Shown: positions 3,480-32,214 of the stretch, in pieces
Numbering within the stretch: position 1 is the first letter of the stretch
How the letters are laid out: every line of letters starts with the position of its first letter
NCBI GenBank assembly: GCA_003576975.1
Contig: QEVD01000048.1
Span: 1 to 44,590, forward strand
Source: Candidatus Zhuqueibacterota bacterium
Lineage (GTDB): Bacteria > Zhuqueibacterota > Zhuqueibacteria > Zhuqueibacterales > Zhuqueibacteraceae
Reading direction: 5' to 3'
DNA length: 44,590 nt
The notes under the pieces: generated by a model
The model's input: the letters and a program-made list of their open reading frames with translations, nothing else
The model's database searches: none
Told to the model about the DNA's origin: nothing
Position numbers and translations under genes: made by a program

Positions 3480-3484
3480 GGCTT

Positions 3485-3561
3485 CTCCGTTTCGGATTTC
3501 CAATTGCGGATGATGAATTGAAGCTTTTATTAAACCGCATTCCGAAATCCACCATCCGCAA
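3485..3561 (-). repeat. Heptamer inverted-repeat spacer P3/P2
   Basis: GGATTTC-type spacer between the P3 stop and P2. ATTGCGGATG and CATCCGCAAT on the minus strand form a perfect 10-bp stem, and further heptamers (TTTCGGA, TCCGAAA) allow alternative pairing. It ends in the P2 ribosome binding site GGAGA. Confidence 0.75.
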
Positions 3562-5958: not shown

Positions 5959-5965
5959 AATTTTT

Positions 5966-6041
5966 CCATTTCGGATTTGGGATTGCGGACTGCAGAGGCT
6001 TCATTGTCTAAAGACCGCCATCCGAAATTCACAATCCGCCA
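5966..6041 (-). repeat. Heptamer inverted-repeat spacer P4/P3
   Basis: GGATTTG/GGATTGC-type heptamers on one side and CCGAAATTCACAATCCGCC on the other, complementary across a short loop. The repeat begins at the P4 stop codon. The P3-proximal end reads GGAAAAATT, so the ribosome binding site is weaker than in the other spacers. Confidence 0.75.
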
Positions 6042-8471: not shown

Positions 8472-8474
8472 AGC

Positions 8475-8555
8475 ATCTCCATTTCGGATTTGGGATTGTG
8501 GGCTTCGGATGCCTGACTGGATATTATTCCGCAATCCGAAATCCCCAATCCGCAA
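8475..8555 (-). repeat. Heptamer inverted-repeat spacer P5/P4
   Basis: TTTCGGATTTGGGATTGTGG on one side and CAATCCGAAATCCCCAATCC on the other (plus strand) give a long imperfect stem. The repeat starts at the P5 stop codon and ends in the P4 ribosome binding site (GGAGATGCT). Confidence 0.78.
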
Positions 8556-11001
<2,446 letters not shown>

Positions 11002-13407: not shown

Positions 13408-13420
13408 GTTGGACTCCTGA

Positions 13421-13481
13421 TTTGTAATGCGTAAAACGTAAAGCGTGAGGAGACAGCCTACGCATCACGCTTTGCGTTTTA
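13421..13481 (-). repeat. GCGT-type heptamer inverted repeat, P7/P6 spacer
   Basis: Arms at 13432-13448 and 13465-13481 are inverted repeats over 17 positions with one mismatch (TAAAACGTAAAGCGTGA). The sequence has 7-bp periodicity (AATGCGT, AAAACGT, AAAGCGT) but is unrelated to the GGATT heptamers in the neighbouring spacers. Same position and orientation: it begins at the P7 stop and ends before the P6 ribosome binding site. Confidence 0.85.
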
Positions 13482-15887: not shown

Positions 15888-15891
15888 GGCT

Positions 15892-15973
15892 TCTCCATTT
15901 CGGATTACGGATTGTGGATTACGGACGTTGAATTGAAGTTTTCAATCCGCAATCCACAATCCCCATTCCGCAA
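15892..15973 (-). repeat. Heptamer inverted-repeat spacer P8/P7
   Basis: GGATTAC/GGATTGT heptamers near 15900-15927 face AATCCGCAATCCACAATCC (plus strand). The stem is long and the loop short. It runs from the P8 stop to the GGAGAAGCC ribosome binding site of P7. Confidence 0.78.
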
Positions 15974-18373: not shown

Positions 18374-18381
18374 GAAATGGC

Positions 18382-18427
18382 CCGAAGTCAATTTATCAAG
18401 GAGACCGAAGTCAATTTATCAAGGAGA
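18382..18427. repeat. 23-bp exact tandem duplication
   Basis: Two adjacent identical 23-bp copies, 18382-18404 and 18405-18427, beginning CCGAAGTCAATTTATC. They lie immediately upstream of P8 and within the 109-bp gap after the hydrolase gene. No other repeat is seen in this gap. Confidence 0.95.
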
Positions 18428-18482
18428 TTGTTTTTGATTCTTCAAAACTGTGGCAAAGCAAGGACAGCGACTAGGCAAACAT

Positions 18483-19334
18483 TCAATGCGCGTGAGCTTG
18501 ATTGATCACGTCCCGAATGGCCTTCACGACGGTTTCGGGTTTCTCGCGTTGCATGTTGTGGCCGCTATCCGTAACAACGATGAGCTTACCGTTGGCACTG
18601 AGCGCCGCCAATTCACCCTGCAACTCCCGCCAGATTTCTTCCTGCTGCTGCGCGTTGTGCTCTGGAAGCCATTGATGGCGCCCGGCCGCAAGAACAACAA
18701 GAGGAAGATCCCGCGGCAGCTTTAATTTTGGATAAAGCGCGCGGCTCTGTTCGAGGCCTTCATATTCAAGCCGAATGGCTTCCGGCAAGCCGGCGCGCGA
18801 TTCCGCCAGCATGGCCTGCCGCTGCTGGCGCTCCTCCGTGGTGAGGATTTCATCGCGGCGTCTTTCAAAATTTTCGTGCGGGCTGTCGATCAAAACCAAA
18901 CCGGCAACGGCATGCGGATAAAAATGTGCAAACGTTCTGAGATGCCACCCTCCTGCTGAATGTCCGACCAAGACATAGGGCGCCGGCGCATCGATGCAAT
19001 CCAGCAACGCTTTTAACTCCAGCGCAATTTTCTCGGAGGTTCGGGGCGCGAGAGCCGCCTCGCTTCTTCCCATGCCAGCGCGATCATACGAAATAACCGT
19101 GGCAAATTTCGACAAATCTTCAATCACAAAGCGCCACGCACGCGAGTCTTCCCGCATGCCGGCTTCGAGCACAACCGTGGCAGGGCCGTTGCCGTTCACG
19201 CACGCGTAGAGACTGCGTTCTCCGATGCTAAACACGGAACAGCTTGTGGCCACGGTAAAATTTTGTCCCCGCGTTTCGGCCTGAAAAAGAAAAAGCGTTC
19301 CAATCGTTGTTGCAAGAACAACTGTTGCTTTCAT
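18483..19334 (-). CDS. Secreted alpha/beta hydrolase
   Basis: Protein of 283 residues with an N-terminal hydrophobic signal (residues 3-18, likely cleaved near residue 23), so probably periplasmic. The alpha/beta hydrolase fold is supported by the nucleophile elbow GHSAG (Ser126), VISYDRAGMGRS (80-91), LVLIDSP (Asp150, a possible acid) and GHNM (His259). The oxyanion-region HG motif is replaced by EAGMREDSRAW. An AAGG lies about 7 nt before the start. It sits between P9 and P8 with gaps of 41 and 109 bp, all on the same strand, so it is probably co-transcribed. The substrate cannot be read from the sequence. It could be an esterase or lipase-like enzyme acting on something the neighbouring permeases handle, but that is inference. 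Confidence 0.88.
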   Translation of the reverse strand: MKATVVLATTIGTLFLFQAETRGQNFTVATSCSVFSIGERSLYACVNGNGPATVVLEAGMREDSRAWRFVIEDLSKFATVISYDRAGMGRSEAALAPRTSEKIALELKALLDCIDAPAPYVLVGHSAGGWHLRTFAHFYPHAVAGLVLIDSPHENFERRRDEILTTEERQQRQAMLAESRAGLPEAIRLEYEGLEQSRALYPKLKLPRDLPLVVLAAGRHQWLPEHNAQQQEEIWRELQGELAALSANGKLIVVTDSGHNMQREKPETVVKAIRDVINQAHAH

Positions 19335-19375
19335 CCATTTGCCTTGTTCAGGATGTAAATCTTTGCGTGCCGATC

Positions 19376-21820
19376 TTATTCGTACCGCAACGCTTTAACT
19401 GGATTCGTCAACGCGGCCTTGACTGCTTGCGAACTTACGGTTATGAACGCGATGAGCAGCGCCAAACCGCCCGCGAGCGCGAACATCCACCAACCGATGC
19501 TGATGCGATATGCGAAGTTTTGCAGCCAGTGATTCATCGCGTACCAGGCAACCGGCCAGGCGATGAGGTTGGCGAGCGCGACGAGCTTGAGGAAATCACC
19601 GGCGAGCAGAGAAACGATGTCGGCCACCGAAGCGCCGAGCACTTTGCGAATGCCGATTTCTTTGGTGCGCTTGGTAACGGCCAAAGCCGACAATCCGAAC
19701 AAGCCGACGCAGGCGATGACAATTGCAAATAATGTCGCAAACGAAACGATTTGCGCCCAGCGTTCTTCGGCGCGATATTGGCGATCGAAATCTTCATCGA
19801 GGAAATAGTAATCGAACGGTTTTCCGGGGGCGGCTTCACCCCACGCGTTGCGCAGCCGTTCGAGCGAATGCGAGAAATCGCCGGGGGTGAGACGAACAAA
19901 AATATACTTGATGGCTTTTTCCGGCGCGAGATAGAGCACCAATGGTTTGATCTTTTCGTGAAGTGAGGCAAAATTAAAATCCTGCACGACACCGATGATG
20001 GCTGGCTCTTTCATGATCGGATTTTGCCAATTTCCCAGACTGAAGTCGCTGAACTTTTGGCCGCTGCGCGCCGGATCCTTCCAGCCGAACGCTGATGCCA
20101 GCGCTTCATTGACGATCACGGCGCCGGTCACATCCGAAATCATCTCCGGTGAAAAATCGCGGCCCTGCACAATCTTCATACCCATGGTCTTGATGAAGTC
20201 TGTGTCGACGCGCATGACATTCACCTGCCAATTTGCACCGTCTTTTGTGCCGAATGATTGCCACGACGGTTCTTTATTGAAGCCGTCGGAATTGCCGGTG
20301 ACGCCAGCGATGCTGCTATATCCGCGCAATTGTTGGCGAAAACGTTCCAACCTCTGCTCACCCTCTTCGCCGCGCGCGTTGGTGGGAATGACAATGATTT
20401 GTTCTTCATTAAAACCGGGATTTTGTGTTTTGAGATGATAAAGCTGGCGGGACATGATCATGGCGCAGATGATCAGCAGCACGGAGAGCGAAAACTGCAC
20501 GACGACAAGACTCTGGCTCAAGCGGTGTTTGCTGCCGAGCGCGAGCCGATTTTTTAGAATCGCAATGGGTTGAAAGCCGGAGAGAAAAACGGCGGGATAA
20601 CCGCCGGCGACGAAAGCAACAAATAAAACCAGGCCGGCGAATACACCATAAATTTGCCAGTTGCCAGGATAGTGAATCACCAGAGTTTTGTTGGCCAGCG
20701 AATTAAAGGTTGGCAGAAAAAATTCGGCCAATGCAATGCCCATGAGCAGGGCCAGTATGCTGAAGATCAGGCTTTCTCCCCAGAATTGCCACAGCAGCCG
20801 GCTACGAGTAGCGCCAACGGTTTTGCGCATGCCGACTTCTAATGTGCGGCTGGCGGCGCGGCCTACAGCCAGCGTCGTAAAATTAATGCAGGCGATCAAC
20901 AACACGATCAGCCCGACGCCGGAAAGAATGTAAGAATATGCCGGATTGCTCGCCGGAAAAAAACTGTTTTCAACTCCCGTGGTGAGATGGAGGTCCAGCA
21001 ACGGTTGCAACGACAATTGCAAAGCGCCCTCTTCTTTGGCAATCCACCCAAGAATTTGCCAGGTGTTGATCATGTCCTGGTAATAGTTTTTCTCAAAGGC
21101 GCGGAATTTGGCTTGCAACGCGGCAGGTTGCACGTTATCGGCAAGCTGAATGAAAGTGGCAGCCCCCCACGACGTCCAACTCGTTTCCAAATCCCGGTAA
21201 CTCGGCTTGTTCTCGTAACGCAGGAGAAAATCGAAAACGATACTGGAATTGCTGGGAATCTCGCGCGCGACGCCGGCAACGGTAAAATCCTCGTCGCCGT
21301 CGCCAAAGTTCAGTGTCAGCGTTTGACCGAGCGGCGCGGCATTGCCAAAATATTTTTGCGCCATTGCTGCGCTCAAGACAATGGCTTTTTTATCATTGAG
21401 AACGGATTCAGCGGCGCCGCTGAGCAACGGGAAGCTGAACATTTTGAAAAAATCGCTATCGGCAAAAAGCACTTGCTCCTTCGTCGCGTTTTCCGGCGAG
21501 GTGCGGACAACGGCATTGCTTTGCGCGAAGCGGGTGGCAAACCGGATTTCAGGAAAATTTGCTTTTAACGTCGGCGCCAAAGGCAGCGGCTGGCCGCCGT
21601 TGATCTTGATGCTGCCGGCAGGCGTTTGGGTGCGGAGATTGACGCGATAAAGGCTTTGGGCGTGCTCATGAAATTTATCATAGCTCATTTCATACTGCAC
21701 GAAAAGGAAAACCAAAATGCAACAGGCCACGCCGACAGCCAGGCCGAAAACATTGATGAAGGAATAGGTCTTGTATTTGAGTACGTGGCGGAAGGCGATT
21801 TTGAGATAGCTTTTGAACAT
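19376..21820 (-). CDS. P9: MacB/FtsX-type ABC permease, first of unit B
   Basis: Permease of 814 residues. The frame continues 24 codons upstream, but that part is translated repeat (ITSNQRPATRNQ), so I start at MFKSYLKIAFRHVLKY; AAGGA precedes it by 8 nt. Post-TM1 motif YEMSYDKFHEHA; periplasmic motif PLLDLHLTT; first coupling motif LEVGMRKTVGA; second KEIGIRKVLGA at 720-730. The variant INFTTLAVGRAASR replaces INFMNLATARS. The second half has an insertion around SLGNWQNPIMKEPA before IIGVVQDFNFASL, explaining its length. The usual SKDF after the second coupling helix is AGDF, and the tail is TNPVKALRYE. It lies 82 bp after the small gene that opens unit B. Substrate unknown. Confidence 0.93.
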   Translation of the reverse strand: MFKSYLKIAFRHVLKYKTYSFINVFGLAVGVACCILVFLFVQYEMSYDKFHEHAQSLYRVNLRTQTPAGSIKINGGQPLPLAPTLKANFPEIRFATRFAQSNAVVRTSPENATKEQVLFADSDFFKMFSFPLLSGAAESVLNDKKAIVLSAAMAQKYFGNAAPLGQTLTLNFGDGDEDFTVAGVAREIPSNSSIVFDFLLRYENKPSYRDLETSWTSWGAATFIQLADNVQPAALQAKFRAFEKNYYQDMINTWQILGWIAKEEGALQLSLQPLLDLHLTTGVENSFFPASNPAYSYILSGVGLIVLLIACINFTTLAVGRAASRTLEVGMRKTVGATRSRLLWQFWGESLIFSILALLMGIALAEFFLPTFNSLANKTLVIHYPGNWQIYGVFAGLVLFVAFVAGGYPAVFLSGFQPIAILKNRLALGSKHRLSQSLVVVQFSLSVLLIICAMIMSRQLYHLKTQNPGFNEEQIIVIPTNARGEEGEQRLERFRQQLRGYSSIAGVTGNSDGFNKEPSWQSFGTKDGANWQVNVMRVDTDFIKTMGMKIVQGRDFSPEMISDVTGAVIVNEALASAFGWKDPARSGQKFSDFSLGNWQNPIMKEPAIIGVVQDFNFASLHEKIKPLVLYLAPEKAIKYIFVRLTPGDFSHSLERLRNAWGEAAPGKPFDYYFLDEDFDRQYRAEERWAQIVSFATLFAIVIACVGLFGLSALAVTKRTKEIGIRKVLGASVADIVSLLAGDFLKLVALANLIAWPVAWYAMNHWLQNFAYRISIGWWMFALAGGLALLIAFITVSSQAVKAALTNPVKALRYE

Positions 21821-21823
21821 GAT

Positions 21824-21857
21824 CTGGTTCCTTGTTGCTGGTCGCTGGTTGCTCGTA
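21824..21857 (-). repeat. ACCAGCR-type heptamer tract upstream of P9
   Basis: On the minus strand the leader reads as successive 7-mers ACGAGCA, ACCAGCG, ACCAGCA, ACAAGGA, ACCAGAT just before the P9 start. The AAGGA of the fourth unit also serves as the likely ribosome binding site. A second small direct repeat (ACGCGGATG twice) lies further upstream in the same spacer. Confidence 0.6.
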
Positions 21858-21902
21858 ATCTCTGCAAGACTGCGGCATCCGCGTTCGTCCACGCCATCCG
21901 CG

Positions 21903-22121
21903 TTAGGCTTTTTGCTTCACCTTGTACATCACCCGGCCAAGATAACCGGCTTCGCTGATCTCGGCGATATAAAGCCCGCTTTGAAGATAAGCGCGGGTTT
22001 TCAACGTGCGCTCGGAAAGTCCGCTCAATAGCTCGTTCGCTTCCCAATCTTTTTCGCTGTCACTCAAAAGAATCGACTCGCCACCCTCTACGATTTTTTG
22101 CAGAATCTCTTTTAAGCTCAT
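21903..22121 (-). CDS. Small hypothetical protein (72 aa), first gene of unit B
   Basis: I do not recognise this protein. The start is well supported: AAGGAG lies 6 nt before the ATG at 22121. The sequence MSLKEILQKIVEGGESILL opens with a predicted amphipathic helix, followed by a polar, acidic stretch and a C-terminal part (SGLYIAEISEAGYLGRVMY) with beta-like character, ending in the basic KVKQKA. There is no signal peptide, membrane segment or cysteine. It is the first gene after the regulatory region at 22238-22397 and lies 82 bp before P9, so it is likely co-transcribed with P9 to P1. A regulatory or assembly role is possible but unsupported. Confidence 0.7.
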   Translation of the reverse strand: MSLKEILQKIVEGGESILLSDSEKDWEANELLSGLSERTLKTRAYLQSGLYIAEISEAGYLGRVMYKVKQKA

Positions 22122-22237
22122 GGGTTCTCCTTGAATTGTGGAAGCTCAGATATTCTTGTCCGCAATCAATTATAGTGATTAGACAAATTCATTCAGGCCA
22201 TGGTTACATAAAGCCACATTAGGGCAAGGTGAAATAT

Positions 22238-22251
22238 TCAACAATCATGCC
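22238..22251 (-). promoter_or_regulatory. Sigma-54-like promoter element of unit B
   Basis: The minus strand reads GGCATGATTGTTGA. GG and the downstream G are spaced as in the sigma-54 -24/-12 consensus (GGCAC-N5-TTGC), but the last base is A, not C. The same element with 13 of 14 identical bases lies at 32104-32117 ahead of unit A, at the same distance from the same palindrome. Assignment to sigma-54 is inference. Confidence 0.5.
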
Positions 22252-22313
22252 TCTGATGTTTTTCAAAGAATTATAGTAACTTGGGAAGTGGGATAGGCAG
22301 GAAAGCTGTCCGC

Positions 22314-22347
22314 TGGTATGGCAGTAGGTGTTCGCCAGCGAACAGTA
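22314..22347 (-). promoter_or_regulatory. Conserved 34-bp block with palindrome, probable activator site
   Basis: Contains the perfect palindrome TGTTCGCCAGCGAACA at 22329-22344, then ACTGCCATACCA on the minus strand. It matches 29 of 34 bases with 32181-32214. It is located about 97 bp (centre to -12) upstream of the sigma-54-like element, a typical position for an NtrC-family enhancer site; the protein that binds is not known. Confidence 0.6.
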
Positions 22348-22360
22348 TATTTAAAAAGCC

Positions 22361-22397
22361 GAACAGGCGACCCATTGGAGAAAGGGATAACCTGTTC
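22361..22397 (-). terminator. Possible terminator after P10
   Basis: GAACAGG (minus 22397-22391) pairs perfectly with CCTGTTC (22367-22361) around a 23-nt loop, and the stem is followed by GGCTTTTT. The stem is short and the loop long, so termination would be weak. It lies 78 bp after the P10 stop and directly before the palindromic block. Confidence 0.4.
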
Positions 22398-22443
22398 AAG
22401 GTCACGCGAGAAGTTCTTGTTGATTTCAGAAAGGTGAAAGAAA

Positions 22444-22471
22444 ACACTGATAACTGATAACTGACTACTGC
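22444..22471 (-). repeat. CTGATAA-type heptamer tract after P10
   Basis: On the plus strand ACACTGA, TAACTGA, TAACTGA, CTACTGC succeed each other with 7-bp period, starting 3-4 nt after the P10 stop codon. This is a fourth heptamer family in the locus. Confidence 0.6.
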
Positions 22472-22474
22472 TTT

Positions 22475-24910
22475 TCACTCATACCGCAGCGCCTCAACCG
22501 GATTCGCCAGCGCTGCTCTCACCGTCTGAGCACTGACGGTAAGCAACGCAATGACCAACGCCAATCCGCTGGCCAGCACAAAGACACCCCAGCCGAGATC
22601 GATGCGATAAGCAAAGCTTTGCAGCCAGCCGTTGATGAAATAGTAAGAAACCGGCCACGCGATGAGGTTGGCAATCACGACCAGTTTGACAAACTCTTTT
22701 GACAACAGACTCATAATGCCCGGCGTCGTGGCGCCCAGGACTTTGCGGATGCCAATTTCTTTCGTTCGTTGCTCGGTCGCGTACATGGCCAATCCCAGCA
22801 GGCCAAGACACGACACAAAGATTCCCACACCGGCAAAGATGGCGAAGAGTTTTCCCAGCGCCCGATCGGCGCGGTAATAGCGTTCCAGGCGATCATCGAG
22901 AAAATACGCTGTGAACGGTTGTCCGCCGCTGAAGGATTTCCATTTTTCCTCCACCGCGCGAATAGTGGCCGGAATATCGCCTTGCAGACGCAGCACAATG
23001 CGCGTCGGAGCTCCGCGTGAGAACAATGTCACCATCGGCAAAATCTGCTGGTGCAAAGGCTCGTAATGAACGTCTTCCGTCACGCCAATAATGTTCAACA
23101 CCCTCTCGCCGTCGCCAAAATAGCCGTGGAGCTTGCGGCCGACCGGCTCTTGATATCCCAGTAGTCTCGCCGCTTGTTCGTTGATGATCACGGCGTTGGT
23201 TGAATCGGTGGAAAAATCCCGGGAGAAGAATCGCCCTTCTTTCAAGCGCACGCCCAGGAAGGGAAGAAAATCATAATCACACCAGAGTTGGCGTAACATA
23301 ATGAGATTGGAATTAGTTTCGCCTTCGCGCCAGTAAGCCGCACTGCCAATGTCATTCCCGGGGAGATTCTGCGTGAAGGCCGCCGCCGCAACGCCGGCCT
23401 GGTTCAGCAGCGTCTCCTTGAAGCTTTGTGCTTTGCCCCGGCCCAACAGCCAGGTATTATCCACCACCAGCATTTGCTCTTTGTCGAATCCCAGATGGCG
23501 CGCCCGAATGAACTGAAGCTGGCGATAGACGGCCATTGTGCCCACCATTAATGCAATCGAAATGGCAAATTGCAAGATGACCAGCGCGCTGCGCAACCGG
23601 CTGCCGCGCATGCCGCTGCGCAACTCACCCTTCAAAACATTGGCCGGCTGAAACGAGGAGAGAACGAATGCCGGATAACTTCCGGCCAAAACGCCGACCA
23701 CAATTGTAAAGGCCAACAGCCCCGCAACCGCCCGCGGGCTGGCCAAAACCTCCAGCGAGAGTGATTTTGAAATAAGCTCGTTGACAGTGGGCAACATTAG
23801 CTCCATGATGCCGAGACTGACCAGCATGGCTATCGCCGCAAGCAACACCGCTTCGCCGATAAACAAGAGAATCAACTGCGGCGTCAGCGAACCTAAAACT
23901 TTGCGCACGCCCACTTCTTTGGCGCGGCGGGTGGCGCGCGCGGTGCTGAGGTTCATAAAGTTAATGCAGGCAATCAGCAGAATGAACACGGCAACCATGA
24001 TAAGGGCGTAAACCGTGGCCGCGTTGCCAGGCGGAAAAACTTCCTCATCAAGATGCGAATGCAGATGAATGTCGGTGATCGGCTGGAAGCGATAACGATA
24101 ATACATCCCCCTCGCCTGCATGTGCTTCCAGTCGCCTCCCAAAGTTGCCTCCACCGCCGGACGAACGTTCTCTTCGACAATCGTTTGAAAGGTGGACTCG
24201 GCCAGTTCGCGTGAAGCCCCTTTTTTCAACAGAACGTAAGTGTACCAGGAATTGTTGATCCAACTGTGTTCTTCTGAGATGGAACGGCCAACTAAAGAGG
24301 CCAGAAGCCCAAAACGCCAGTGCGATTGTGAAGGAAATTCCTTCACGACGCCGCAGATCATGAACTGTGAGCGCCCGTCAACTTCCAACATCTTGCCGAG
24401 CGCAGGCTCGTCGCCAAAATATTTGCGCGCTGTGGCGTCTGTAATGACAATGGTGTTGGGCCGGGTCAAAAACGTGTTGGCGTCGCCTTCCAGCACCTCG
24501 CAGGAAAAAACCTTGAAGAACGACGAATCGGCAAAAAAGAGCAAATACTCATTAAATGCTTTATCACCATAACGGACGGCGCAATCACTGACCGGTGTGC
24601 CGCCACGCGCCCGGATGTGGGTTGCCGCTTCGACTTCCGGCAGGTTTTCCCGCAGGCTCGCGGCCACCGGACCGCTGCTGCGCGCCGTAATAAACTCGCG
24701 GTCTTGTACTTGAGCATCAAGCGTGATGCGGTAGAGGCGATCGGCATTTTTGTGGTGGCGGTCATAGGAAAGTTCATCACCAACAATCAACAGAATGATC
24801 AAACAACAGCTCATGCCGATGGCGAGTCCGGCGATAATGATGCCGGTGTAAATTTTCTGGCGGAGCAACTTCCGCAGGGTAATCGTCATTTCATTTCTGA
24901 GCCTTGACAT
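22475..24910 (-). CDS. P10: MacB/FtsX-type ABC permease, last of unit A
   Basis: Permease of 811 residues with an atypical N-terminus, MSRLRNEMTITLRKLLRQK, lacking the NYLK start of the other copies; an alternative start is the second ATG seven codons in (24889). First membrane segment GIIIAGLAIGMSCCLIILLI, then DELSYDRHH; periplasmic motif PITDIHLHS; coupling motifs KEVGVRKVLGS and KEIGIRKVLGA (717-727). The second domain has the unusual IIGVTEDVHYEPL, where a lysine or arginine before DFH is otherwise common. The C-terminus AWPVSYYFIN is intermediate between the two subtypes, ending [17 protein letters not shown] hairpin with a T-run and then the second promoter region follow. Substrate unknown. 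Confidence 0.93.
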   Translation of the reverse strand: MSRLRNEMTITLRKLLRQKIYTGIIIAGLAIGMSCCLIILLIVGDELSYDRHHKNADRLYRITLDAQVQDREFITARSSGPVAASLRENLPEVEAATHIRARGGTPVSDCAVRYGDKAFNEYLLFFADSSFFKVFSCEVLEGDANTFLTRPNTIVITDATARKYFGDEPALGKMLEVDGRSQFMICGVVKEFPSQSHWRFGLLASLVGRSISEEHSWINNSWYTYVLLKKGASRELAESTFQTIVEENVRPAVEATLGGDWKHMQARGMYYRYRFQPITDIHLHSHLDEEVFPPGNAATVYALIMVAVFILLIACINFMNLSTARATRRAKEVGVRKVLGSLTPQLILLFIGEAVLLAAIAMLVSLGIMELMLPTVNELISKSLSLEVLASPRAVAGLLAFTIVVGVLAGSYPAFVLSSFQPANVLKGELRSGMRGSRLRSALVILQFAISIALMVGTMAVYRQLQFIRARHLGFDKEQMLVVDNTWLLGRGKAQSFKETLLNQAGVAAAAFTQNLPGNDIGSAAYWREGETNSNLIMLRQLWCDYDFLPFLGVRLKEGRFFSRDFSTDSTNAVIINEQAARLLGYQEPVGRKLHGYFGDGERVLNIIGVTEDVHYEPLHQQILPMVTLFSRGAPTRIVLRLQGDIPATIRAVEEKWKSFSGGQPFTAYFLDDRLERYYRADRALGKLFAIFAGVGIFVSCLGLLGLAMYATEQRTKEIGIRKVLGATTPGIMSLLSKEFVKLVVIANLIAWPVSYYFINGWLQSFAYRIDLGWGVFVLASGLALVIALLTVSAQTVRAALANPVEALRYE

Positions 24911-24975
24911 CGTATCCGAACCTCACACATTTTTGCGCCTAGCGCTGCCCATTTCACACAGCCGCAAACGCCGGG

Positions 24976-27360
24976 CTATTCATATCGTAACGCCTCCACT
25001 GGATTCGCCAGCGAGGCTTTTATGGCTTGCGCGCTTACGGTTAGCAGGGCGATGAGCAATGCCACGCCGCCGCCCAGCAGAAACGGGCTGATCTCGAGAT
25101 CGATATGATACGCAAAATTTTGCAGCCACTCGCGCAAGGCGAAGTAGGCAATCGGCGCGGCCACAACAAAAGCCAGGGCAACCAGCCGGGTAAATTCTTT
25201 TGAGAGCAGCAGCAAAATTTCCGCGACCGAAGCGCCCAAGACTTTGCGAATGCCGATTTCACGTGTTCTTTGCTCTGCGGTAAATGAGGCCAGCCCAAAC
25301 AAGCCGAGGCAGGCGACAAACAACGCCAAAAAAGCGAAGCCACTGAAAAGTTGCCCGAGTTTTTCTTCCGAACGATAGAGCCGGTCAAAATCCTCGTCGA
25401 GAAAGCGATAGTTCAACGGCAAATCCGGTTCTAACACCCGCCATTGTGTTTCGATAAAATTCAGCGTATTCGCCACGTCTGTAGGCGCAATGCGAATCGC
25501 CGCGCTCCACGACCACTCTGGCTTGATGTCCAGCACCAGCGGCTCGATCTTTTGGTGCAACGATCTGAAATTGAAATCCTTCACCACGCCGATGACCTGG
25601 CCCATTTCTTCATCCCAAACTTTGAACGGCTTGCCGATGGGATCACTCCAACCCAATTCGCGCACCGCGGTTTCGTTCAAAATATAGGCATTCGTGACAT
25701 CAGTCGCAATCTCCTGGGAGAAACTTCGGCCGTGCAGCAGTTGCAATCCCAGGGCAGCTATGGTTTGATGATCGCCGAACATCGTATAAAAACTTTTGTT
25801 GTCAAGATCCTGCTGCTGTCCCGGCCAATTATAGCCGCGGCTTGTGCCCACGCGGCCGGGAACGCTGCCGGCAAGCGCCACATGAAGAATATTGGCGCTG
25901 CCCGACAAATTCTGCCGGAATGTTTCGAAGCGTTCTTTGACCGACCGGCTCAAGCCAAGAAACACCACCTGTTCTTTTTTGAAACCCAGATCGCGGGTTT
26001 TCATGTAATGCAGTTGTTTATAAAGCGTAACAATGGCCACGAGCAAAAAGACGGCGATGCCAAACTGCACGACGATAAGGCTCTTGCGTAAATGCGCGCC
26101 TTTCACGCCGCGCGTTACCAGCCCTTTTAAAACTTTGGCAGGATCGAAAGCGGACAAAACCAGCGCGGGGTAGATGCCGGAAAGAATGCCGGTGAGAAGT
26201 CCGATGCCGATGAGCACAAACAACATGCCGGAGTTGGCAAACGGATCAAAACTGATCGCGCGCCCCAGCACGTTGGGGAGGTACGGCGCAAAAAGTTGCA
26301 ACATAGCCAGCGCCAAAATCATCGCCAGCACACTGGCAAAAATCGATTCGCCGAACAATTGCAGCATCAACTGCTGGCGGTAAGCGCCGGCAACTTTACG
26401 CACCCCAACCTCCCGGGCGCGTAACGTTGCGCGCGCCGTGGCCAAATTGACAAAGTTTATGCCGGCAATGAATAAAATAAAAAAAGCGACAACCGAAAAA
26501 ATGTAGAGATACCTTTTGTCGCTATTGGTGCCAACATCCCAGGTGATATTGGTGGTGAGATGAATATCGGGTAAAGGCTGGAGCGCCAAAGCCGTATTTT
26601 TCGCGGTATCTTCACCGCGGTATTTGCGCAGAAAATCCGGAAAACGGGCGGTGAGTTGCTGCGGAGCAAGGGCGGGCGGCAGCAAAAGATAGGTGTAATA
26701 ATTAAAATTGATGTATTCTTCCAGCGCTTGCTCACCCATGAAAGCCTTGATGGTGCTGAACGAGGCGAGATACTCAAACTGCAAATGCGAGTTGCTGGGA
26801 ATGCTCTCCAAAACACCGGTGACTTGCATCTCCCAATTCGCCGCGCCCCCCAGGAACGTCATGGTCTTGCCCACCGGATTTTCGCTGCCGAACCAAGCCT
26901 CTGCCGCCGCGGGCGTCAGCACCATGGTGTTCGGCATGGCCAGCGCGGTTTTCGGATCGCCCTGGCGCAAATGAAAACTGAAGACATCGAAGACAGAGGA
27001 ATCGGCGTAGAAAAAACCGTCAACGGTTCGAACCTCGGCGCCATATTTGAGGTTGACGCGGCTGCTGTTGGTGAAGAACCGCACGACTTCAAGATCGGGA
27101 AATTCCTGTTTCAAATGGGGCGCATATCCCGAAGCGCTGATGGCCGAGCGTTGATTCGAATCCTGCGCCGGCGTGTGCAACAAACGGTAAATGCGCTGCG
27201 CGTTTGCATGAAAACGATCGTAGCTCAACTCATGCCGAACATAAAGCACAATGACAAAACAGCAGGCCAGCCCGATCGCCAGCCCGGTGATATTGATGAA
27301 GGAATAACCTTTGTGTTTAAGGAAATTTCTGAGCGCAATGCGAAGATAATGTTTGAACAT
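24976..27360 (-). CDS. P11: MacB/FtsX-type ABC permease
   Basis: Permease of 794 residues. An ATG nine codons upstream is in frame (MKFHFRDHFMF), but alignment favours MFKHYLRIALRNFLKH at 27360. Post-TM1 motif ELSYDRFHAN; periplasmic motif PLPDIHLTT; the first coupling motif REVGVRKVAGA replaces the usual VLGA, and the second uses REIGIRKVLGA (700-710) where nearly all others have KEIG. The variant GINFVNLATARATLR follows the second membrane segment. The second half has [13 protein letters not shown]. The C-terminus is the AAPIAYFALR subtype, close to P12, and the tail is [14 protein letters not shown]. It lies 53 bp after P12 and 65 bp before P10, with no heptamer hairpin at either junction. 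Substrate unknown. Confidence 0.93.
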   Translation of the reverse strand: MFKHYLRIALRNFLKHKGYSFINITGLAIGLACCFVIVLYVRHELSYDRFHANAQRIYRLLHTPAQDSNQRSAISASGYAPHLKQEFPDLEVVRFFTNSSRVNLKYGAEVRTVDGFFYADSSVFDVFSFHLRQGDPKTALAMPNTMVLTPAAAEAWFGSENPVGKTMTFLGGAANWEMQVTGVLESIPSNSHLQFEYLASFSTIKAFMGEQALEEYINFNYYTYLLLPPALAPQQLTARFPDFLRKYRGEDTAKNTALALQPLPDIHLTTNITWDVGTNSDKRYLYIFSVVAFFILFIAGINFVNLATARATLRAREVGVRKVAGAYRQQLMLQLFGESIFASVLAMILALAMLQLFAPYLPNVLGRAISFDPFANSGMLFVLIGIGLLTGILSGIYPALVLSAFDPAKVLKGLVTRGVKGAHLRKSLIVVQFGIAVFLLVAIVTLYKQLHYMKTRDLGFKKEQVVFLGLSRSVKERFETFRQNLSGSANILHVALAGSVPGRVGTSRGYNWPGQQQDLDNKSFYTMFGDHQTIAALGLQLLHGRSFSQEIATDVTNAYILNETAVRELGWSDPIGKPFKVWDEEMGQVIGVVKDFNFRSLHQKIEPLVLDIKPEWSWSAAIRIAPTDVANTLNFIETQWRVLEPDLPLNYRFLDEDFDRLYRSEEKLGQLFSGFAFLALFVACLGLFGLASFTAEQRTREIGIRKVLGASVAEILLLLSKEFTRLVALAFVVAAPIAYFALREWLQNFAYHIDLEISPFLLGGGVALLIALLTVSAQAIKASLANPVEALRYE

Positions 27361-27413
27361 GAAGTGATCCCTGAAATGGAATTTCATCGTCTCCCAGCAT
27401 GTGTCAGGTTTCC

Positions 27414-29822
27414 TTATTCATACCGCAAGGCCTCAACCGGATTCGCGAGCGCCGCCTTGATCGCCTGATAGCTTACCGTCAAAAACGCGATGATCACGGC
27501 TAAAACGCCGCTGAGCAAGAAGACCTGAAGCCCGATGTCCGTGCGATAAGCAAAGTCTTCGAGCCATTTTCGCATGGCGAGGTAGGCGATGGGCGTCGCA
27601 ATCAAAAAAGCAATGAGCACCAACCTGGCAAAATCTTTCGACAACAACAGCACCACGCCCGGCACAGAAGCGCCCAGCACCTTGCGTACACCAATTTCTT
27701 TGGTGCGCTGCTCGGTGGTGAATGAAGCCAGGCCCAAAAGCCCGAGTCCCGCAACAAAGATTGCCAGGCTGGAGAAAAGCCCCATGATGCGGCGCAAGGT
27801 ATCTTCGGATTGATAGATGCTGTCGACCTTGTCATCCAAAAAAGAATATTCCAACGGGTGTGCGGGATCGAATTCCAGCCACGCCTGTTTCAAAATCTCC
27901 AGCGCCCGCGGCGCCTGCTGGGGCAAAATGCGAAGCGCGAGAAAATCCATGCGATAGGGCATGAGATGAAAGACTGCCGGCGCAATCTGTTCGTGCAAAC
28001 CGCGAAAATGAAAATCCTTGGTCACGCCAATCACCGTGCCTGTTTTGGCAATATCCGGTCCCTCGCCCAGCCAACTGAACTTTTTGCCGAGGGCGGCTTC
28101 CGCAGTGCCCCAGCCGAATTTTTTAACCGCCGCTTCGTTGACGATGAACGCCGCACTGCTGTCGCTGGCAAAAGCAGGTGAAAAATCCCGGCCAGCGGCC
28201 AGATCAATGCCGAGTGTTTTTACAAAATCATAATCGATCTGAAAGGTATAGACAACCTGTTCTTCCTCGGCATTCGCGCTTTCAACGCGCGCGCCGGTTT
28301 GCCACCACCCCTCGTCCGCCGGCATGGACGACGAAGCCGTCACGCTGCTGATTTCAGGGTGACGCAGCAATTCGGTTTTTAGCGTCGGCCATTTGCGCCC
28401 GGCCTCACGGCCGGTGAGCGGAACAACCACGACCTGTTCCTTGTCGAAGCCGAGCTTTTTATTGCGCATGAATTCGAGCTGATTGTGAATGATGAGCGTG
28501 CCTGCGATCAAGACAATTGAGATGGCGAATTGCGCCACGACCAGGGCCTGGCGCAGGCGCGCACCGCCGAGGTGGCGTGAAAATTTTCCCTTCAACACCT
28601 CCACCGGCTGAAAGCGGGAGAGAAAAAACGCCGGATAACTGCCCGCCAAGATGCCCACCAACAAAGCAATCGCAATGAAACCAGCAGCGACAAAGCCCTC
28701 TTGAAAATAATTCACCTCCAGCGCTTTGCCGGAAAGCTGATTGAAAAACGGCAGGAAGAATTCCACCAAGCCCGCGGCAACGATGAGCGCAAGAAACGCC
28801 AACAACAGCGATTCACTGAGAAATTGCATGATCAGAATGCTGCGCTGCACGCCCACCAGCTTGCGCACGCCCACTTCTTTGGCGCGCTGTTGCGAGCGGG
28901 CCGTGGCGAGATTCATGAAATTGATGCAGGCAATGATCAAAACGAAAAAAGCCAGAGCCGAGAAAAGATAAAGATACGTCATGCTCCCCAACTCGCCGGC
29001 GCGATCGTCAAAGTTGGAATGCAGGTGGATGTCGGTCAACGGCTGCAACTGCAAGGCAAGTTTGGGGTAACCAGCGGGGGTATTGGCATAGTGTTTTTGA
29101 ATGAAGTCGGGAAATTTTTTCTCCAGTTCTGCCGCGGGCACGTTTTCCGGCAACAGCAAATAGGCATAGTAGGAAAATCCCCACCAGTTGTTGAGATTCG
29201 TACCCGCGCCATTTTCAAACGGCACAATGAAATTCGGTTGCAGATGAGAATTGGAGGGAATCTTGGCGAGAACACCGGTCACTTTGAATTCACGATTGCC
29301 GAGTTCAGCCGTGAGCGTTTTGCCCATCGGGTTTTCATTGCCAAAATACTTTTCCGCGGCCTCGGGACTGATGATGATGGCATGCGGATCTTGCAGCGCC
29401 GTGCGCGGATCGCCCTGTTGCAAAGGAAAGTCGAACAGTTCGAACAACTGCGCATCGGCGAAATAAAATTTCTCCTCATAGAATTTTTTCTCGTGCTGCG
29501 CAACCAAGACCCGGCGCGCCGTTTCCCGCAGCCGCACGGCGGTAATGACTTCGGGATATTCCTGCTGCAACGCCGGCGCAATGGGCGCGGACGTTACCGT
29601 GAGCGGGGCGCTTTTCTGACCATTCTGTTCGAACGTTGCCAATACGCGATAAATGCGCTCGGCTTTTTCATGAAAGCGATCATAGCTCAGCTCATTGCGC
29701 ACGTAAAGCAGAATCAAATAGCAGCACGCCATGCCCACCGCCAGTCCGGCAATGTTAATGGCCGTGTAGCCTTTGTGTTTAATAAGATTTCTCCGGGCGA
29801 TTTTCAGATAGTTGTTGAGCAT
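27414..29822 (-). CDS. P12: MacB/FtsX-type ABC permease, first of the array
   Basis: Permease of 802 residues; it serves as the reference copy. Layout: membrane segment (about 22-42), ELSYDRFHEKAERIYRV, first MacB-like periplasmic domain ending in PLTDIHLHS, three membrane segments with the cytoplasmic coupling motif KEVGVRKLVGV, then a fourth (VVAQFAISIVLIAGTLII), a second periplasmic domain (VIGVTKDFHFRGL) and three more segments with [11 protein letters not shown] at 708-718. Every complete copy ends exactly 95 residues from the first residue of that second motif. The chain thus resembles two MacB membrane units joined, without a fused ATPase, so one chain may equal a MacB dimer. I start at MLNNYLKIARRNL; no Shine-Dalgarno is visible, and the upstream extension begins at TTG. 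C-terminus: ATPIAYLAMR. It directly follows the ATPase gene. Substrate unknown. Confidence 0.93.
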   Translation of the reverse strand: MLNNYLKIARRNLIKHKGYTAINIAGLAVGMACCYLILLYVRNELSYDRFHEKAERIYRVLATFEQNGQKSAPLTVTSAPIAPALQQEYPEVITAVRLRETARRVLVAQHEKKFYEEKFYFADAQLFELFDFPLQQGDPRTALQDPHAIIISPEAAEKYFGNENPMGKTLTAELGNREFKVTGVLAKIPSNSHLQPNFIVPFENGAGTNLNNWWGFSYYAYLLLPENVPAAELEKKFPDFIQKHYANTPAGYPKLALQLQPLTDIHLHSNFDDRAGELGSMTYLYLFSALAFFVLIIACINFMNLATARSQQRAKEVGVRKLVGVQRSILIMQFLSESLLLAFLALIVAAGLVEFFLPFFNQLSGKALEVNYFQEGFVAAGFIAIALLVGILAGSYPAFFLSRFQPVEVLKGKFSRHLGGARLRQALVVAQFAISIVLIAGTLIIHNQLEFMRNKKLGFDKEQVVVVPLTGREAGRKWPTLKTELLRHPEISSVTASSSMPADEGWWQTGARVESANAEEEQVVYTFQIDYDFVKTLGIDLAAGRDFSPAFASDSSAAFIVNEAAVKKFGWGTAEAALGKKFSWLGEGPDIAKTGTVIGVTKDFHFRGLHEQIAPAVFHLMPYRMDFLALRILPQQAPRALEILKQAWLEFDPAHPLEYSFLDDKVDSIYQSEDTLRRIMGLFSSLAIFVAGLGLLGLASFTTEQRTKEIGVRKVLGASVPGVVLLLSKDFARLVLIAFLIATPIAYLAMRKWLEDFAYRTDIGLQVFLLSGVLAVIIAFLTVSYQAIKAALANPVEALRYE

Positions 29823-29986
29823 AGCGCATGGCGCAAAGAGCGTCGCGATGAACGCTCGGCTCTGCGCGCCCTCCGGTTGAAAGAGGTTCGACAAGTTTGA
29901 GAGAATTGATTCCGCACGGTTCGCGCTCAAACGCGCGAACCAGGCATGCCGCCTGTAATCGTTTTAAAACGTGCGCCGGCGCGGCA
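29823..29986 (-). other. Spacer between ATPase and P12 with hairpins
   Basis: This 164-bp spacer holds no supported gene. It contains a perfect 8-bp inverted repeat GGTTCGCG / CGCGAACC (29918-29925 and 29934-29941, 8-nt loop) and a 12-bp palindrome CGTTTTAAAACG at 29960-29971. The first may attenuate expression of the permeases relative to the ATPase; no experiment-independent evidence for that is visible. Confidence 0.5.
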
Positions 29987-30688
29987 TTAGACCACCATGT
30001 GCGGACGATGCTTTTCCATGAAGTTTTCCGTCACCACATGGCCGTCGAACAGATGGACGATGCGATGCGCGAACTCGGCGTAGGCTGGCGAGTGCGTGAC
30101 CATCACGATGGTGGTGCCAGCTTCATTCAATTCCGTCAACATCTTCATCACTTCATCGCCGTGCGCGGAATCAAGATTACCGGTGGGTTCATCTGCGAGG
30201 ATGAGTTTGGGCTTGGCCACCACGGCGCGCGCCACAGCCACACGCTGCTGCTGGCCGCCGGATAATTGTTGGGGAAAATGATTCTTGCGATGCATGATTT
30301 GCATGTGTTCCAGCGCTTCACTCACGCGCGCCTTGCGCTCCGCCGACGACACGCCGAGATAAAACAGCGGCAGCTCGACGTTTTCGTAAACCGTCAACTC
30401 ATCGATCAAATTAAAGCTTTGAAACACGAACCCGATATTGGATTTGCGGGTGTTGGCGCGCTGGCGTTCGGAAAATTTTGAAACTTCCTGTCCGAGAAAA
30501 TAATACTCGCCGTCGCTAGGATTGTCGAGCAAACCAATGAGATTCAACAGAGTTGATTTGCCACAGCCCGACGGCCCCATGATGGCCACGAACTCGCCGG
30601 CATTGATCTCGATGTTGATGTTGTTCAGGGCCGTGGTTTCAACTTCTTCGGTGGTGTAGAGTTTCTTGAGATTGTTGGTTTTAATCAT
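29987..30688 (-). CDS. ABC transporter ATPase, MacB/LolD type
   Basis: Cytoplasmic ATPase of 233 residues that should energise the array permeases. The start at 30688 is set by AAGGAG 8 nt upstream; an in-frame ATG eight codons earlier overlaps that site. Walker [10 protein letters not shown] (38-46), Q-loop FVFQS (Gln90), signature LSGGQ (142-146), Walker [13 protein letters not shown] (162-173) and H-loop VTHS (His199) are all intact. The [10 protein letters not shown] signature and length fit the MacB/LolD/FtsE group. It is the only ATPase gene in the 32-kb array, so twelve permeases appear to depend on it or on an ATPase elsewhere in the genome. It lies 44 bp after the adaptor gene and is probably co-transcribed with it. 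Confidence 0.96.
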
Positions 30689-30711
30689 CGCTCTGCTCCT
30701 TGTGGTCCACA

Positions 30712-30732
30712 ATTATCAATCGGCAATTGCCG
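30712..30732 (-). repeat. ATTG-type heptamer tract and palindrome
   Basis: Between adaptor and ATPase genes. The 12-bp perfect palindrome CGGCAATTGCCG at 30721-30732 abuts the adaptor stop codon; AATTGCC, GATTGAT, AATTGTG continue with 7-bp spacing on the minus strand. Short, so periodicity could be chance. Confidence 0.45.
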
Positions 30733-31998
30733 CTAGTTTGTTTTCAACACCAATTTGTCAATATCTCCAAAACTGTCGTAGGATGACGTTACGACTTGCT
30801 CGCCGGGCTCGAGGCCTTCCAACACTTCGAACATTTGCGGATTCTGGCGTCCCAGCTTGATCGCGCGCTTCACGCCGTACTGGCCGGATTTGTCGACGAC
30901 ATACACCCACTGTCCGCCGGTTTTCTGATAGAATCCGCCGCGCGGCAACAGCGTGGCTTCGGTGAGATCACCGAGCTGCAAACGAATGTGCAGCGTTTGG
31001 CCGCGCCGAATGCCCGAGGGCTCGCGGCCCTGAAACTCCATGTCCACATCAAAACGGCCGTCGCGAATTTCCGGATAAACTTTCTTCGTGACCAATTGAT
31101 ACGTTTGGCCGGCAAAATCGAATTCCGCCGCCAAACCGACGCTGATGCGCGGCAGATAATGTTCATCAATTCCGGCGCGGACTTTATAGCCCTCCAACAC
31201 ATCGATCTGCCCCAAACGCTCGCCCGGCGTTTTAATCTCGCCGACGATTTCCGCATTGAGCGAAGTGAGCTGGCCGTCAATCGGCGCTTTGATGGTCAGA
31301 TTCTCCAGGTTCTGCTTGGTCACTTCGAGATTGGCCTGCATGCGTTTCAACGAGGCCTCAAGCTGCTCAATTTGAATCTGGCGAAAAAGCGAATCCTGCT
31401 TGAAAGACTCGACGGCCAGCTCGCGCTGCCGGCGGCGATACTCATACTCGTCGCGTGTCTGCTCATATTCCTGCTGCGAAATCAAATTCTGTTCACGCAA
31501 CGTAATCGCACGCTCATGCTGGCGTTGCAGGCGTTGCAATTGATACTCCTGCTCATTAAACTGCTGCAGCAAATTGAGGCGGCTTTGTTCCATCAACAAG
31601 CGCGTATTGCGCAGGTTGTTGCTCTGCTCAAAAAATTGCGCTTCACGAAACATAATGTCGAGCAGCATGTTGGTGTTGGCGAGCTGCAAAATCTTATCGC
31701 CCTCGTTCACCATGTTGCCCGCTTCGATGAAAATTTTCTCCACCCGTCCGCCTTCGATGGCATCCAGATAGACAGTCTTAAGTGGCAAGACGTTTCCCGT
31801 GACGGGAATAAATTCTTGAAACGGCCCGCGCGCCACCGTGGAAATGGTGATTTTCTCCGTATCAACGTTGAGCTTGGAGCTGCTGTCGCCAAAAATAAAA
31901 CTATACAAAACCGCTGAAAAAAACAGCCCGGCAATGGAGAAAAGTGCGATGCGCTTCGGTGGCCATTTCTTTTTTTGAATGGGACGATCCATGAACAT
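30733..31998 (-). CDS. Periplasmic adaptor (membrane fusion) protein, MacA/HlyD type
   Basis: Adaptor of 421 residues that would link the inner-membrane permease to an outer-membrane channel. It starts at ATG 31998; a second ATG two codons in is equally possible and neither has a strong Shine-Dalgarno. N-terminal basic stretch (PIQKKKWPPKR), one membrane anchor (about 18-37), first half of the lipoyl/barrel-sandwich domain (about 65-110), a long Gln/Glu/Arg-rich coiled coil (about 115-235), second lipoyl half (LTIKAPIDGQLTSL, from about 243), beta-barrel and a membrane-proximal domain to the end. It is the first gene of unit A, behind the regulatory region at 32104-32248. No TolC-like outer-membrane gene is present in the window, so that partner must be encoded elsewhere. 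Confidence 0.94.
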   Translation of the reverse strand: MFMDRPIQKKKWPPKRIALFSIAGLFFSAVLYSFIFGDSSSKLNVDTEKITISTVARGPFQEFIPVTGNVLPLKTVYLDAIEGGRVEKIFIEAGNMVNEGDKILQLANTNMLLDIMFREAQFFEQSNNLRNTRLLMEQSRLNLLQQFNEQEYQLQRLQRQHERAITLREQNLISQQEYEQTRDEYEYRRRQRELAVESFKQDSLFRQIQIEQLEASLKRMQANLEVTKQNLENLTIKAPIDGQLTSLNAEIVGEIKTPGERLGQIDVLEGYKVRAGIDEHYLPRISVGLAAEFDFAGQTYQLVTKKVYPEIRDGRFDVDMEFQGREPSGIRRGQTLHIRLQLGDLTEATLLPRGGFYQKTGGQWVYVVDKSGQYGVKRAIKLGRQNPQMFEVLEGLEPGEQVVTSSYDSFGDIDKLVLKTN

Positions 31999-32033
31999 TC
32001 TCGAATGGTTCGTGATTAAGAGATATTGGCCCA

Positions 32034-32084
32034 GCCGGACTCTCGCAAATAGGCTGCTGGAGGAGGTTGGTGCGAAAGTCCGAC
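32034..32084 (-). promoter_or_regulatory. Stem-loop in the leader of unit A
   Basis: Arms 32034-32047 (GCCGGACTCTCGCA) and 32071-32084 (TGCGAAAGTCCGAC) are inverted repeats with 12 of 14 positions matching, around a 23-nt loop. It lies between the sigma-54-like element and the adaptor start, so it would be part of the mRNA leader. No T-run follows on the minus strand. Function unknown. Confidence 0.6.
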
Positions 32085-32103
32085 TACGCCGCCGTGAGAA
32101 ATC

Positions 32104-32117
32104 TCAACAACCATGCC
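32104..32117 (-). promoter_or_regulatory. Sigma-54-like promoter element of unit A
   Basis: Minus strand GGCATGGTTGTTGA, matching the element at 22238-22251 in 13 of 14 bases and followed by ATTTC in both after one or two bases. GG to G spacing fits -24/-12; the expected C after the last G is A. Leader to the adaptor start would be about 90-100 nt. Confidence 0.5.
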
Positions 32118-32180
32118 GATTTTGATTTATAGATACTTAGATCGTAAAAATGACATTGGTTTTGAATAACGAGTGCACGG

Positions 32181-32214
32181 TGGTATGACAGTTGATGTTC
32201 GCAATCGAACAGTA
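32181..32214 (-). promoter_or_regulatory. Conserved 34-bp block with palindrome, probable activator site
   Basis: Contains TGTTCGCAATCGAACA (32196-32211), a 6-bp-arm palindrome, then ACTGTCATACCA on the minus strand. It matches 29 of 34 bases with 22314-22347. The centre lies about 98 bp upstream of the sigma-54-like element, against 97 bp for the other copy. Confidence 0.6.

Follow-up and report, generated by a model that had tools for sequence, protein, structure and literature searches.

Introduction

Sigma-54 promoters carry GG and GC ten bases apart within the consensus TGGCAYR-N4-TTGCW, and NtrC-type enhancers are dyad-symmetric sites, commonly in phased pairs, about 80–150 bp ahead of the start. 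Sequences resembling both occur in a 44,590-nucleotide stretch of Candidatus Zhuqueibacterota DNA (contig QEVD01000048.1 of assembly GCA_003576975.1; the window, below), in the leaders of two units of an array of MacB/FtsX-type permease genes. These leaders are very probably sigma-54 promoters with a two-site enhancer, run by a candidate kinase-regulator two-component system that would switch on both units.

Several described systems come close. In the BceRS-BceAB modules of Firmicutes, BceR is an OmpR-type regulator. By topology and linkage alone our system resembles these modules, with a kinase that is linked to FtsX-superfamily permeases, has membrane segments at its N-terminus and has only a very short outer loop; unlike BceRS, it would use an NtrC-type activator with sigma-54 in place of an OmpR-type regulator. 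With the NtrC-family activators modelled as TIGR02915 (PEP-CTERM-box), NF008469 (AtoC), TIGR01818 (NtrC) and NF007689 (ZraR), the candidate shares the order receiver, AAA+ domain and Fis-type helix-turn-helix (HTH), a partner kinase, an enhancer and a sigma-54-type promoter. Unlike the NtrC, ZraR, AtoC and PEP-CTERM regulators proper, it falls under all 25 listed NCBIfam cut-offs (at best 404.7 against 502.6 bits, for TIGR02915), and it differs from them in its GAFTDA loop and in a receiver stretch, DMNFT...G.EG, held in common with PDB entry 2qr3.

As for the transporters, the adaptor is closest to DarC (212.4 against a cut-off of 450) and the ATPase to DarD (281 against 375) of the darobactin exporter DarBCD, both below cut-off. 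Two of the eleven permeases were tested, and for these the best model is ADOP (TIGR03434; 306.6 and 328.8 against 622.3), followed by DarB (116.9 and 153.5 against 700) and then MacB, likewise below cut-off. Unlike MacAB, DarBCD and ADOP, this stretch of the window sets a single ATPase and a single adaptor beside eleven permeases.

In the excerpts of it considered here, a 2025 PLoS One article (PMC12316311) predicts -24/-12 promoters at FtsX-like ABC permeases (COG0577) in Bacteroidia, Opitutia and gamma-Proteobacteria, gives the sigma-54 elements as TGGCAC and TGC, styles the result first evidence, and states that activator specificity is unavailable for part of its organisms. A link between sigma-54 and FtsX permeases is thus already in print as a prediction. 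The transporter superfamily is the same as ours; the excerpts name no activator or enhancer, whereas we propose an activator, a tandem operator and a spacing rule from KSB1 genomes. Among the matches listed by our literature search (titles and abstract openings, with few subscription papers and no bioRxiv), we found no publication on this regulator, operator or spacing rule, or on KSB1 sigma-54 promoters. The type of system, an NtrC/sigma-54 two-component circuit, is known; its specific identity, the range of phyla that carry it and its application to very long permease arrays seem new.

Two leaders share a tandem operator and a sigma-54-type element

Ahead of each unit, on the minus strand, lies a block TACTGTTCG...CATACCA that is identical between the leaders at 29 of 34 positions, a resemblance already described in the original prediction; the best 34-mer in 500 shuffles of the leaders reached only 24 matches. 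Its palindrome, TGTTCG-N4-CGAACA, is found at 22329-22344 and 32196-32211, with a chance expectation of 0.02 in the window, and the whole 7.25-Mb assembly holds just these two exact copies, both in these leaders. Both leaders also share GGCATGRTTGTTGA, which follows 62–63 bp beyond the block (end of CATACCA to GG). The earlier description of this region holds on these points: the intervening stretches are unlike in the two leaders and keep their length (62 and 63 bp), the GG-N10-G spacing is correct for sigma-54 in both, and both have A, and neither C, after TTG.

The 34-bp block makes up most of two tandem operators whose starts are 21 bp apart, with the sigma-54-type element beyond. Its ACTGYCATACCA half belongs to a second, weaker operator that was at first overlooked and that extends to ...CGGACAG in unit 2 and ...CGTGCAC in unit 1. 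The leader features are as follows (R2 is the operator profile described in the next section).

32196..32211, minus strand: unit 1 operator site 1, TGTTCGATTGCGAACA, an exact palindrome; R2 match 32172-32211, E 1.1e-7 (an R2 training sequence)
32174..32190, minus strand: unit 1 operator site 2, TGTCATACCACCGTGCA, degenerate; offset of 21 bp from start to start of the two sites, kept in the promoter set and across phyla
32104..32117, minus strand: unit 1 sigma-54-type -24/-12 element, GGCATGGTTGTTGA; GG lies 86 bp below the centre of site 1
22329..22344, minus strand: unit 2 operator site 1, TGTTCGCTGGCGAACA, an exact palindrome; R2 match 22304-22344, E 2.1e-11 (an R2 training sequence)
22307..22323, minus strand: unit 2 operator site 2, TGCCATACCAGCGGACA, sequence of the leader; offset conserved in the promoter set
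22238..22251, minus strand: unit 2 sigma-54-type -24/-12 element, GGCATGATTGTTGA; GG lies 85 bp below the centre of site 1

Transcription would start near 32092 for unit 1 and near 22226 for unit 2. The two elements listed are the only perfect matches to GGCAYG-N4-TTGM in the window. With one mismatch allowed there are 23 matches against 21.7 expected and, since such matches stand at chance level, the -24/-12 element is convincing only jointly with the block.

The promoter recurs ahead of transporter genes

Recurrence was followed in 63 genomes of the class, presumably KSB1, including the window's own genome (G000) and one of the same species (G194). The strict full pattern, searched for in 194 genomes with the window's own among them, gave six sites in four genomes, two of them the window's, against none for the reversed pattern used as control; a slightly relaxed pattern added G194 within the class. 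A sequence-only profile built from seven aligned promoters (R1; its short calibration makes the E-values rough) matched the class genomes 61 times at E<1e-3, in 21 genomes and up to eight times in one (G042); seven of the 61 are the training promoters. A same-strand MacB/FtsX permease (34), HlyD adaptor (13) or MacB-type ATPase (4) starts within 500 bp downstream of 51 of the 61, allowing up to 150 bp of overlap and with gene labels taken from profiles built on window proteins and activator loci rather than from Pfam. Random positions in the same transporter-rich loci stand likewise ahead of such genes in 7.2% of cases, so that the R1 matches are not strewn without regard to genes. The distance from match to gene is not constant. 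A second profile (R2), restricted to the 42 positions of the operators, recovers essentially the same places; built from 44 R1 matches, it is no independent test of recurrence.

Single loci add some detail. The window's genome has a third strong copy of the promoter (G000:C749:2345-2455; L082), ahead of another MacB/FtsX-type permease on a different contig, and in G194 the contig C45 carries two copies of this kind (L083). At L089 one adaptor-ATPase row carries two copies, before the adaptor and before the ATPase (G003:C52:38265-38379 and 40664-40780). Elsewhere in the same genome a good tandem operator (L116; G003:C49:31529-31580) has no recognisable -24/-12 element and no transporter gene within 500 bp downstream; it is possibly an orphan site, or one that acts on the opposite strand.

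Anatomy of the class promoters

Base counts were taken from 55 of the 61 R1 matches, six having failed a two-mismatch filter. Site 1 has the consensus TGTYCG-N4-CGWACA. Site 2 is approximately TGTnATGnCAGCGGAYA, with its start 21 bp beyond that of site 1. The right half of site 2, CGGAYA, is similar to the CGWACA of site 1, and its left half mostly opens with TGT (third base T in 44/55, C in 11/55). The promoter element is GGCAYR-N4-TTG, followed by A in 31 cases, T in 9, G in 8 and C in 7. Genome-wide in six KSB1 genomes, TGGCACG-N4-TTG occurs 112 times against 73 for its reverse, and 18 against 19 times when a final C is required, which hints that C after TTG is unfavoured in this clade; the reversed control differs in composition, and we do not lean on the point.

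Distances were measured on 64 R1 matches with E no higher than 2e-3, which differ in part from the set above. Site 1 could be anchored in 61; G042:C180, G042:C34:21176 and one match in G059, with no site 1 within three mismatches, were dropped. In the range 20–199 bp below site 1, a single perfect GGCAYR-N4-TTG was found for 51 of the 61 anchored promoters. Measured to GG from the middle of site 1, the interval was 71–74 bp in 8 of these and 83–87 bp in 43, and fell nowhere else in the range, although R1 was trained on two distance classes and could favour them.

A candidate activator linked to the promoter in relatives

RpoN, which the proposed promoters presuppose, is encoded by a single intact gene in the window's genome (489 aa, with AID, CBD, DBD and the ARRTVAKYRE box), and the sigma-54 activator domain PF00158 has 55 matches in G000. 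None of the 27 window proteins scanned with Pfam is of NtrC type, and a candidate activator was therefore sought elsewhere in the genomes. In several KSB1 genomes an NtrC-type gene and a kinase gene lie divergent from an adaptor gene, with the promoter between them. Taking one such regulator as reference (L113:6099-7475), we found orthologs, 62–100% identical to it and one copy each, in 22 of the 63 class genomes; the next paralogs in eight genomes of the window's family are about 45% identical or less. The ortholog in G000 (C679:9107-10471) is unlinked to the array and has an adjacent kinase gene cut by the contig end; that in G194 (C1) has the kinase adjoining.

The candidate is an NtrC-type response regulator of 458 aa, and PF00072, PF00158 and PF02954 (the Fis-type HTH) are found in the ortholog of the window's genome. 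Its loop reads GAFTDA in 21 of 22 orthologs and GAFTGA in the other; GAFTDA is among the variants held to retain activity in Desulfovibrio vulgaris in the part of PMC4641369 considered.

Linkage and co-occurrence both point to this regulator. It is divergent from an HlyD adaptor in 12 of the 22 genomes (G036, G018, G042, G023, G049, G035, G056, G058, G044, G029, G009 and G053). In G043 the promoter stands beside the regulator and the contig ends before any adaptor position, in G037 the contig starts 215 bp before the regulator, and in G047 and G031 no adaptor was found in the short stretch around it. Across the 63 genomes, 16 have both regulator and promoter, 6 the regulator only, 5 the promoter only and 36 neither (Fisher p 2.1e-6, which overstates the association because the genomes are related and the counts not independent). 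A tandem operator, allowing at most 4 mismatches over its 18 defined positions and counted in the 600 bp ahead of the regulator, is present at 11 of the 22 orthologs against 1 of 45 distinct paralogous activators; the 45 are 49 loci less duplicates and only part of all activators in these genomes. Based on the matching phyletic pattern and on its divergent position next to the same promoter in relatives, the regulator that the original prediction left nameless now has a named candidate.

Two further observations concern regulators of this type. The closest solved receiver is PDB 2qr3 ("Two-component system response regulator"), whose LLDMNFT...G.EG stretch is common to the candidate's family, and the structure of a related receiver may thus already exist. 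At L130 (G059:C304:1-2714) a weak and probably false profile match lies next to another NtrC-type gene (461 aa), which is accompanied by a HAMP kinase and is not an ortholog of the candidate.

The partner kinase

Hydropathy of the reference kinase shows two adjacent N-terminal hydrophobic segments with almost no outer loop. Under a crude hydropathy rule, used alone and applied to 70 of 77 kinases, 39 have two adjacent N-terminal segments and 31 have one, in some cases long enough for two. Those with two leave no space between them for a periplasmic domain. The kinase may sense within the membrane or via a partner, for which the permeases would be the obvious candidates.

The system in other phyla and a proposed spacing rule

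With the window genome's own regulator as query, the best 80 of the candidate loci listed in a named-genome search (63–78% identical) formed a wider set. Their deposited labels, mostly of metagenome-assembled genomes with some cultured members, include KSB1, Aminicenantes, Acidobacteriota, Zixiibacteriota, Latescibacterota, Gemmatimonadota, Ignavibacteria, Caldithrix, Balneola and many Bacteroidota; at least L196, L198, L200 and L215 are shared with the 63-genome set. In all 80 loci the labelled genes that come next beyond the regulator include a kinase-like gene (in L239 on the other strand), and a divergent HlyD adaptor lies within 1.2 kb of the regulator in 53, several others being cut by contig ends. 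With a threshold of E<0.01, R1 matches these loci 17 times; 16 of the matches precede the regulator and lie on the strand opposite to it. Of 79 loci, 48 carry the tandem operator in the 600 bp ahead of the regulator, one locus with less than 120 bp of upstream sequence having been set aside, against 0.15 expected from mononucleotide shuffles.

Forty-two of the 48 operator-bearing loci have a sigma-54 element within two mismatches and six are without. The distance from operator to element is 93–98 bp in 25 and 82–86 bp in 11, with one each at 74, 80, 108, 122, 127 and 131 bp; C is the base after the -12 G in 19 of the 42.

Over all sets the distances cluster near 73, 84 and 96 bp, in steps of 10–12 bp or about one helical turn. 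A Rayleigh test is strong for all 93 distances and weak with each distinct distance taken once (n 20; p 0.13 for a period of 10.5, 0.02 for 11 and 0.004 for 11.5); as the best period is 11–12, "helical turn" is approximate. A phase that stays fixed while the length changes matches the prediction of DNA looping by an enhancer-bound activator. The three classes of distance to GG (71–74, 83–87 and 93–98 bp) place the centre of site 1 about 97–123 bp from the predicted start, within the range of NtrC-type enhancers.

A proposed circuit and its alternatives

Together the intact rpoN, the non-random sites and the linked candidate activator support the reading of the leaders as sigma-54 promoters served by an NtrC-family activator. 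In the circuit that we propose, the histidine kinase, which has membrane segments at its N-terminus and no large periplasmic domain, would sense something at the envelope and phosphorylate the regulator; the likely signal is envelope stress or a peptide, either exported or antimicrobial. The phosphorylated regulator would occupy the strong palindrome of site 1 and the degenerate site 2, 21 bp downstream, as neighbouring dimers on roughly the same face of the DNA. It would then oligomerise, loop the DNA to RNA polymerase-sigma-54 on GGCAYR-N4-TTG about 85 bp away and drive formation of the open complex, switching on units 1 and 2; co-regulation of both by one regulator is a prediction of the sites. 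Further MacB-like genes elsewhere in the window's genome may come under the same circuit. The duplicate switch would let the second half, about 21 kb, of this very long array be expressed together with the sole adjoining ATPase and adaptor.

Several observations weigh against this circuit. Seven of the 61 R1 matches have no transporter gene within 500 bp (in two, G006:C450 and G037:C239, a permease lies slightly further downstream, at +743 and +771) and three run off a contig end. The base after TTG in KSB1 promoters is chiefly A, C being found in 7/55. Five genomes have the promoter without an ortholog of the regulator: G004 (79% complete), G039 (70%), G060 (80%), G059 (86%) and G030 (94%). 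Six have an ortholog without an R1 match below 1e-3 (G009, G047, G058, G029, G053 and G031); in three of them (G058, G029 and G009) a tandem site that deviates at 2 to 4 positions lies upstream of the regulator. Among the wider loci, 31 of 79 lack the tandem site under the same definition, Chryseolinea, Fulvivirga and Marinoscillum included. In the window's family no operator was found upstream of the regulator itself, and around the six orthologs no adaptor or MacB-type permease is labelled in 8.6–15 kb; since the regulator adjoins neither there, its link to the promoter in this family is one of orthology. The relatedness of the genomes behind the co-occurrence test belongs on the same side of the balance.

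The best placed alternative keeps the sigma-54 promoters and enhancer and assigns the palindrome, in the window's lineage, to a different activator among the 55 or so of NtrC type in G000. The unlinked position of the candidate in the window's family favours it, as do the 5 of 21 promoter-positive genomes without an ortholog. We consider it improbable all the same, given that the operator sits between the candidate and the adaptor in relatives and that a comparable site was found at only 1 of the 45 distinct other activators, a part of all activators. Within the window's family of eight genomes, moreover, the six with an ortholog all have promoter matches, and of the two without, G002, a member of the window's genus lacking both regulator and promoter, has none and the 79% complete G004 has three.

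A repressor or other non-NtrC factor could instead own the palindrome, with GG-N10-G a coincidence and an ordinary promoter in use. TGTTC-N6-GAACA is indeed a generic palindrome, and the chance frequency of one-mismatch GGCAYG-N4-TTGM in the window suits this view. It is nonetheless very unlikely, as all 51 perfect cases place the palindrome at one of two discrete distances from GGCAYR-N4-TTG, the element is found again in other phyla, and the linked regulator is an AAA+ sigma-54 activator. That the leaders are mere copies left by a recent duplication of the array, and their likeness uninformative on regulation, would fit eleven similar permease genes that apparently arose by gene duplication; we give this very little credence, because the 60-odd bp between block and -24 differ, whole-leader similarity is absent, and the sites turn up again ahead of adaptor, ATPase and permease genes in other genomes and phyla. 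A structured RNA, riboswitch or attenuator is the least credible reading: the inverted repeats could fold once transcribed, but the window has no Rfam family at gathering threshold and the conserved sequence precedes the predicted start, at a kept distance to -24 and a variable one to the gene.

The preferred reading, in which the kinase-regulator pair drives both units through sigma-54, can be extended, though we regard the extension as speculative and doubtful. It would be an ancient, vertically kept envelope-defence circuit of KSB1, Bacteroidota, Acidobacteriota, Zixibacteria, Latescibacteria, Gemmatimonadota and others, in which the kinase reads MacB/FtsX permeases within the membrane, much as BceS reads BceAB under another class of regulator, the GAFTDA activator and phased tandem enhancer turn on arrays, and the window's lineage has eleven permeases, two switches and a relocated regulator. 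With operator, promoter and regulator-kinase pair defined, control of long MacB/FtsX arrays becomes testable and regulon members can be listed from sequence; carriers include the cultured Bacteroidota Roseivirga spongicola (L235) and Labilibaculum euxinus (L236).

Gene content of the array and its neighbours

Units 1 and 2 lie wholly on the minus strand, and each of their eleven permeases has MacB_PCD and FtsX domains in Pfam. Unit 1 is adaptor, ATPase and three permeases, as originally described. The account of unit 2 as a small gene followed by P9 to P1 needs a slight correction: it has eight permeases and an alpha/beta hydrolase behind the 72-aa gene. In unit 2 the orientation of the genes and their short gaps suggest a single transcript; unit 1 would likewise be transcribed as one.

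30733..31998, minus strand: HlyD-type periplasmic adaptor, unit 1 gene 1 (Pfam HlyD_3; top NCBIfam model DarC, below cut-off)
29987..30712, minus strand: MacB-type ABC ATPase, unit 1 gene 2 (Pfam ABC_tran; top NCBIfam model DarD, below cut-off)
22475..29930, minus strand: three MacB/FtsX permeases of unit 1, at 27414-29930, 24976-27387 and 22475-24910 (Pfam MacB_PCD, FtsX)
21903..22121, minus strand: small 72-aa gene of no family, unit 2 gene 1; the start of the frame is also in the same-species genome G194
within 1098..21892, minus strand: eight MacB/FtsX permeases of unit 2, at 19376-21892, 15974-18391, 13482-15887, 11002-13407, 8556-10919, 6042-8555, 3562-5958 and 1098-3503 (Pfam)
18483-19334, minus strand: alpha/beta hydrolase of unit 2 (Pfam)

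Divergent from the array, on the plus strand at 32339-33796, is a gene for a DUF6596-containing sigma factor of the extracytoplasmic function (ECF) type (Sigma70_r2, r4), followed by genes for a DUF3224 protein and a uricase. The region upstream of this sigma gene includes the unit 1 operator. A one-mismatch sigma-54 match on the plus strand within the block, GGTATGACAGTTGA (32182-32195), was considered as a divergent promoter for it and dropped because unit 2 does not retain the match. Near the end of the window, two minus-strand genes (42722-43210 and 43218-44471) encode Por-type secretion tails (FlgD_ig, Por_Secre_tail) and Big_9/cadherin-like domains.

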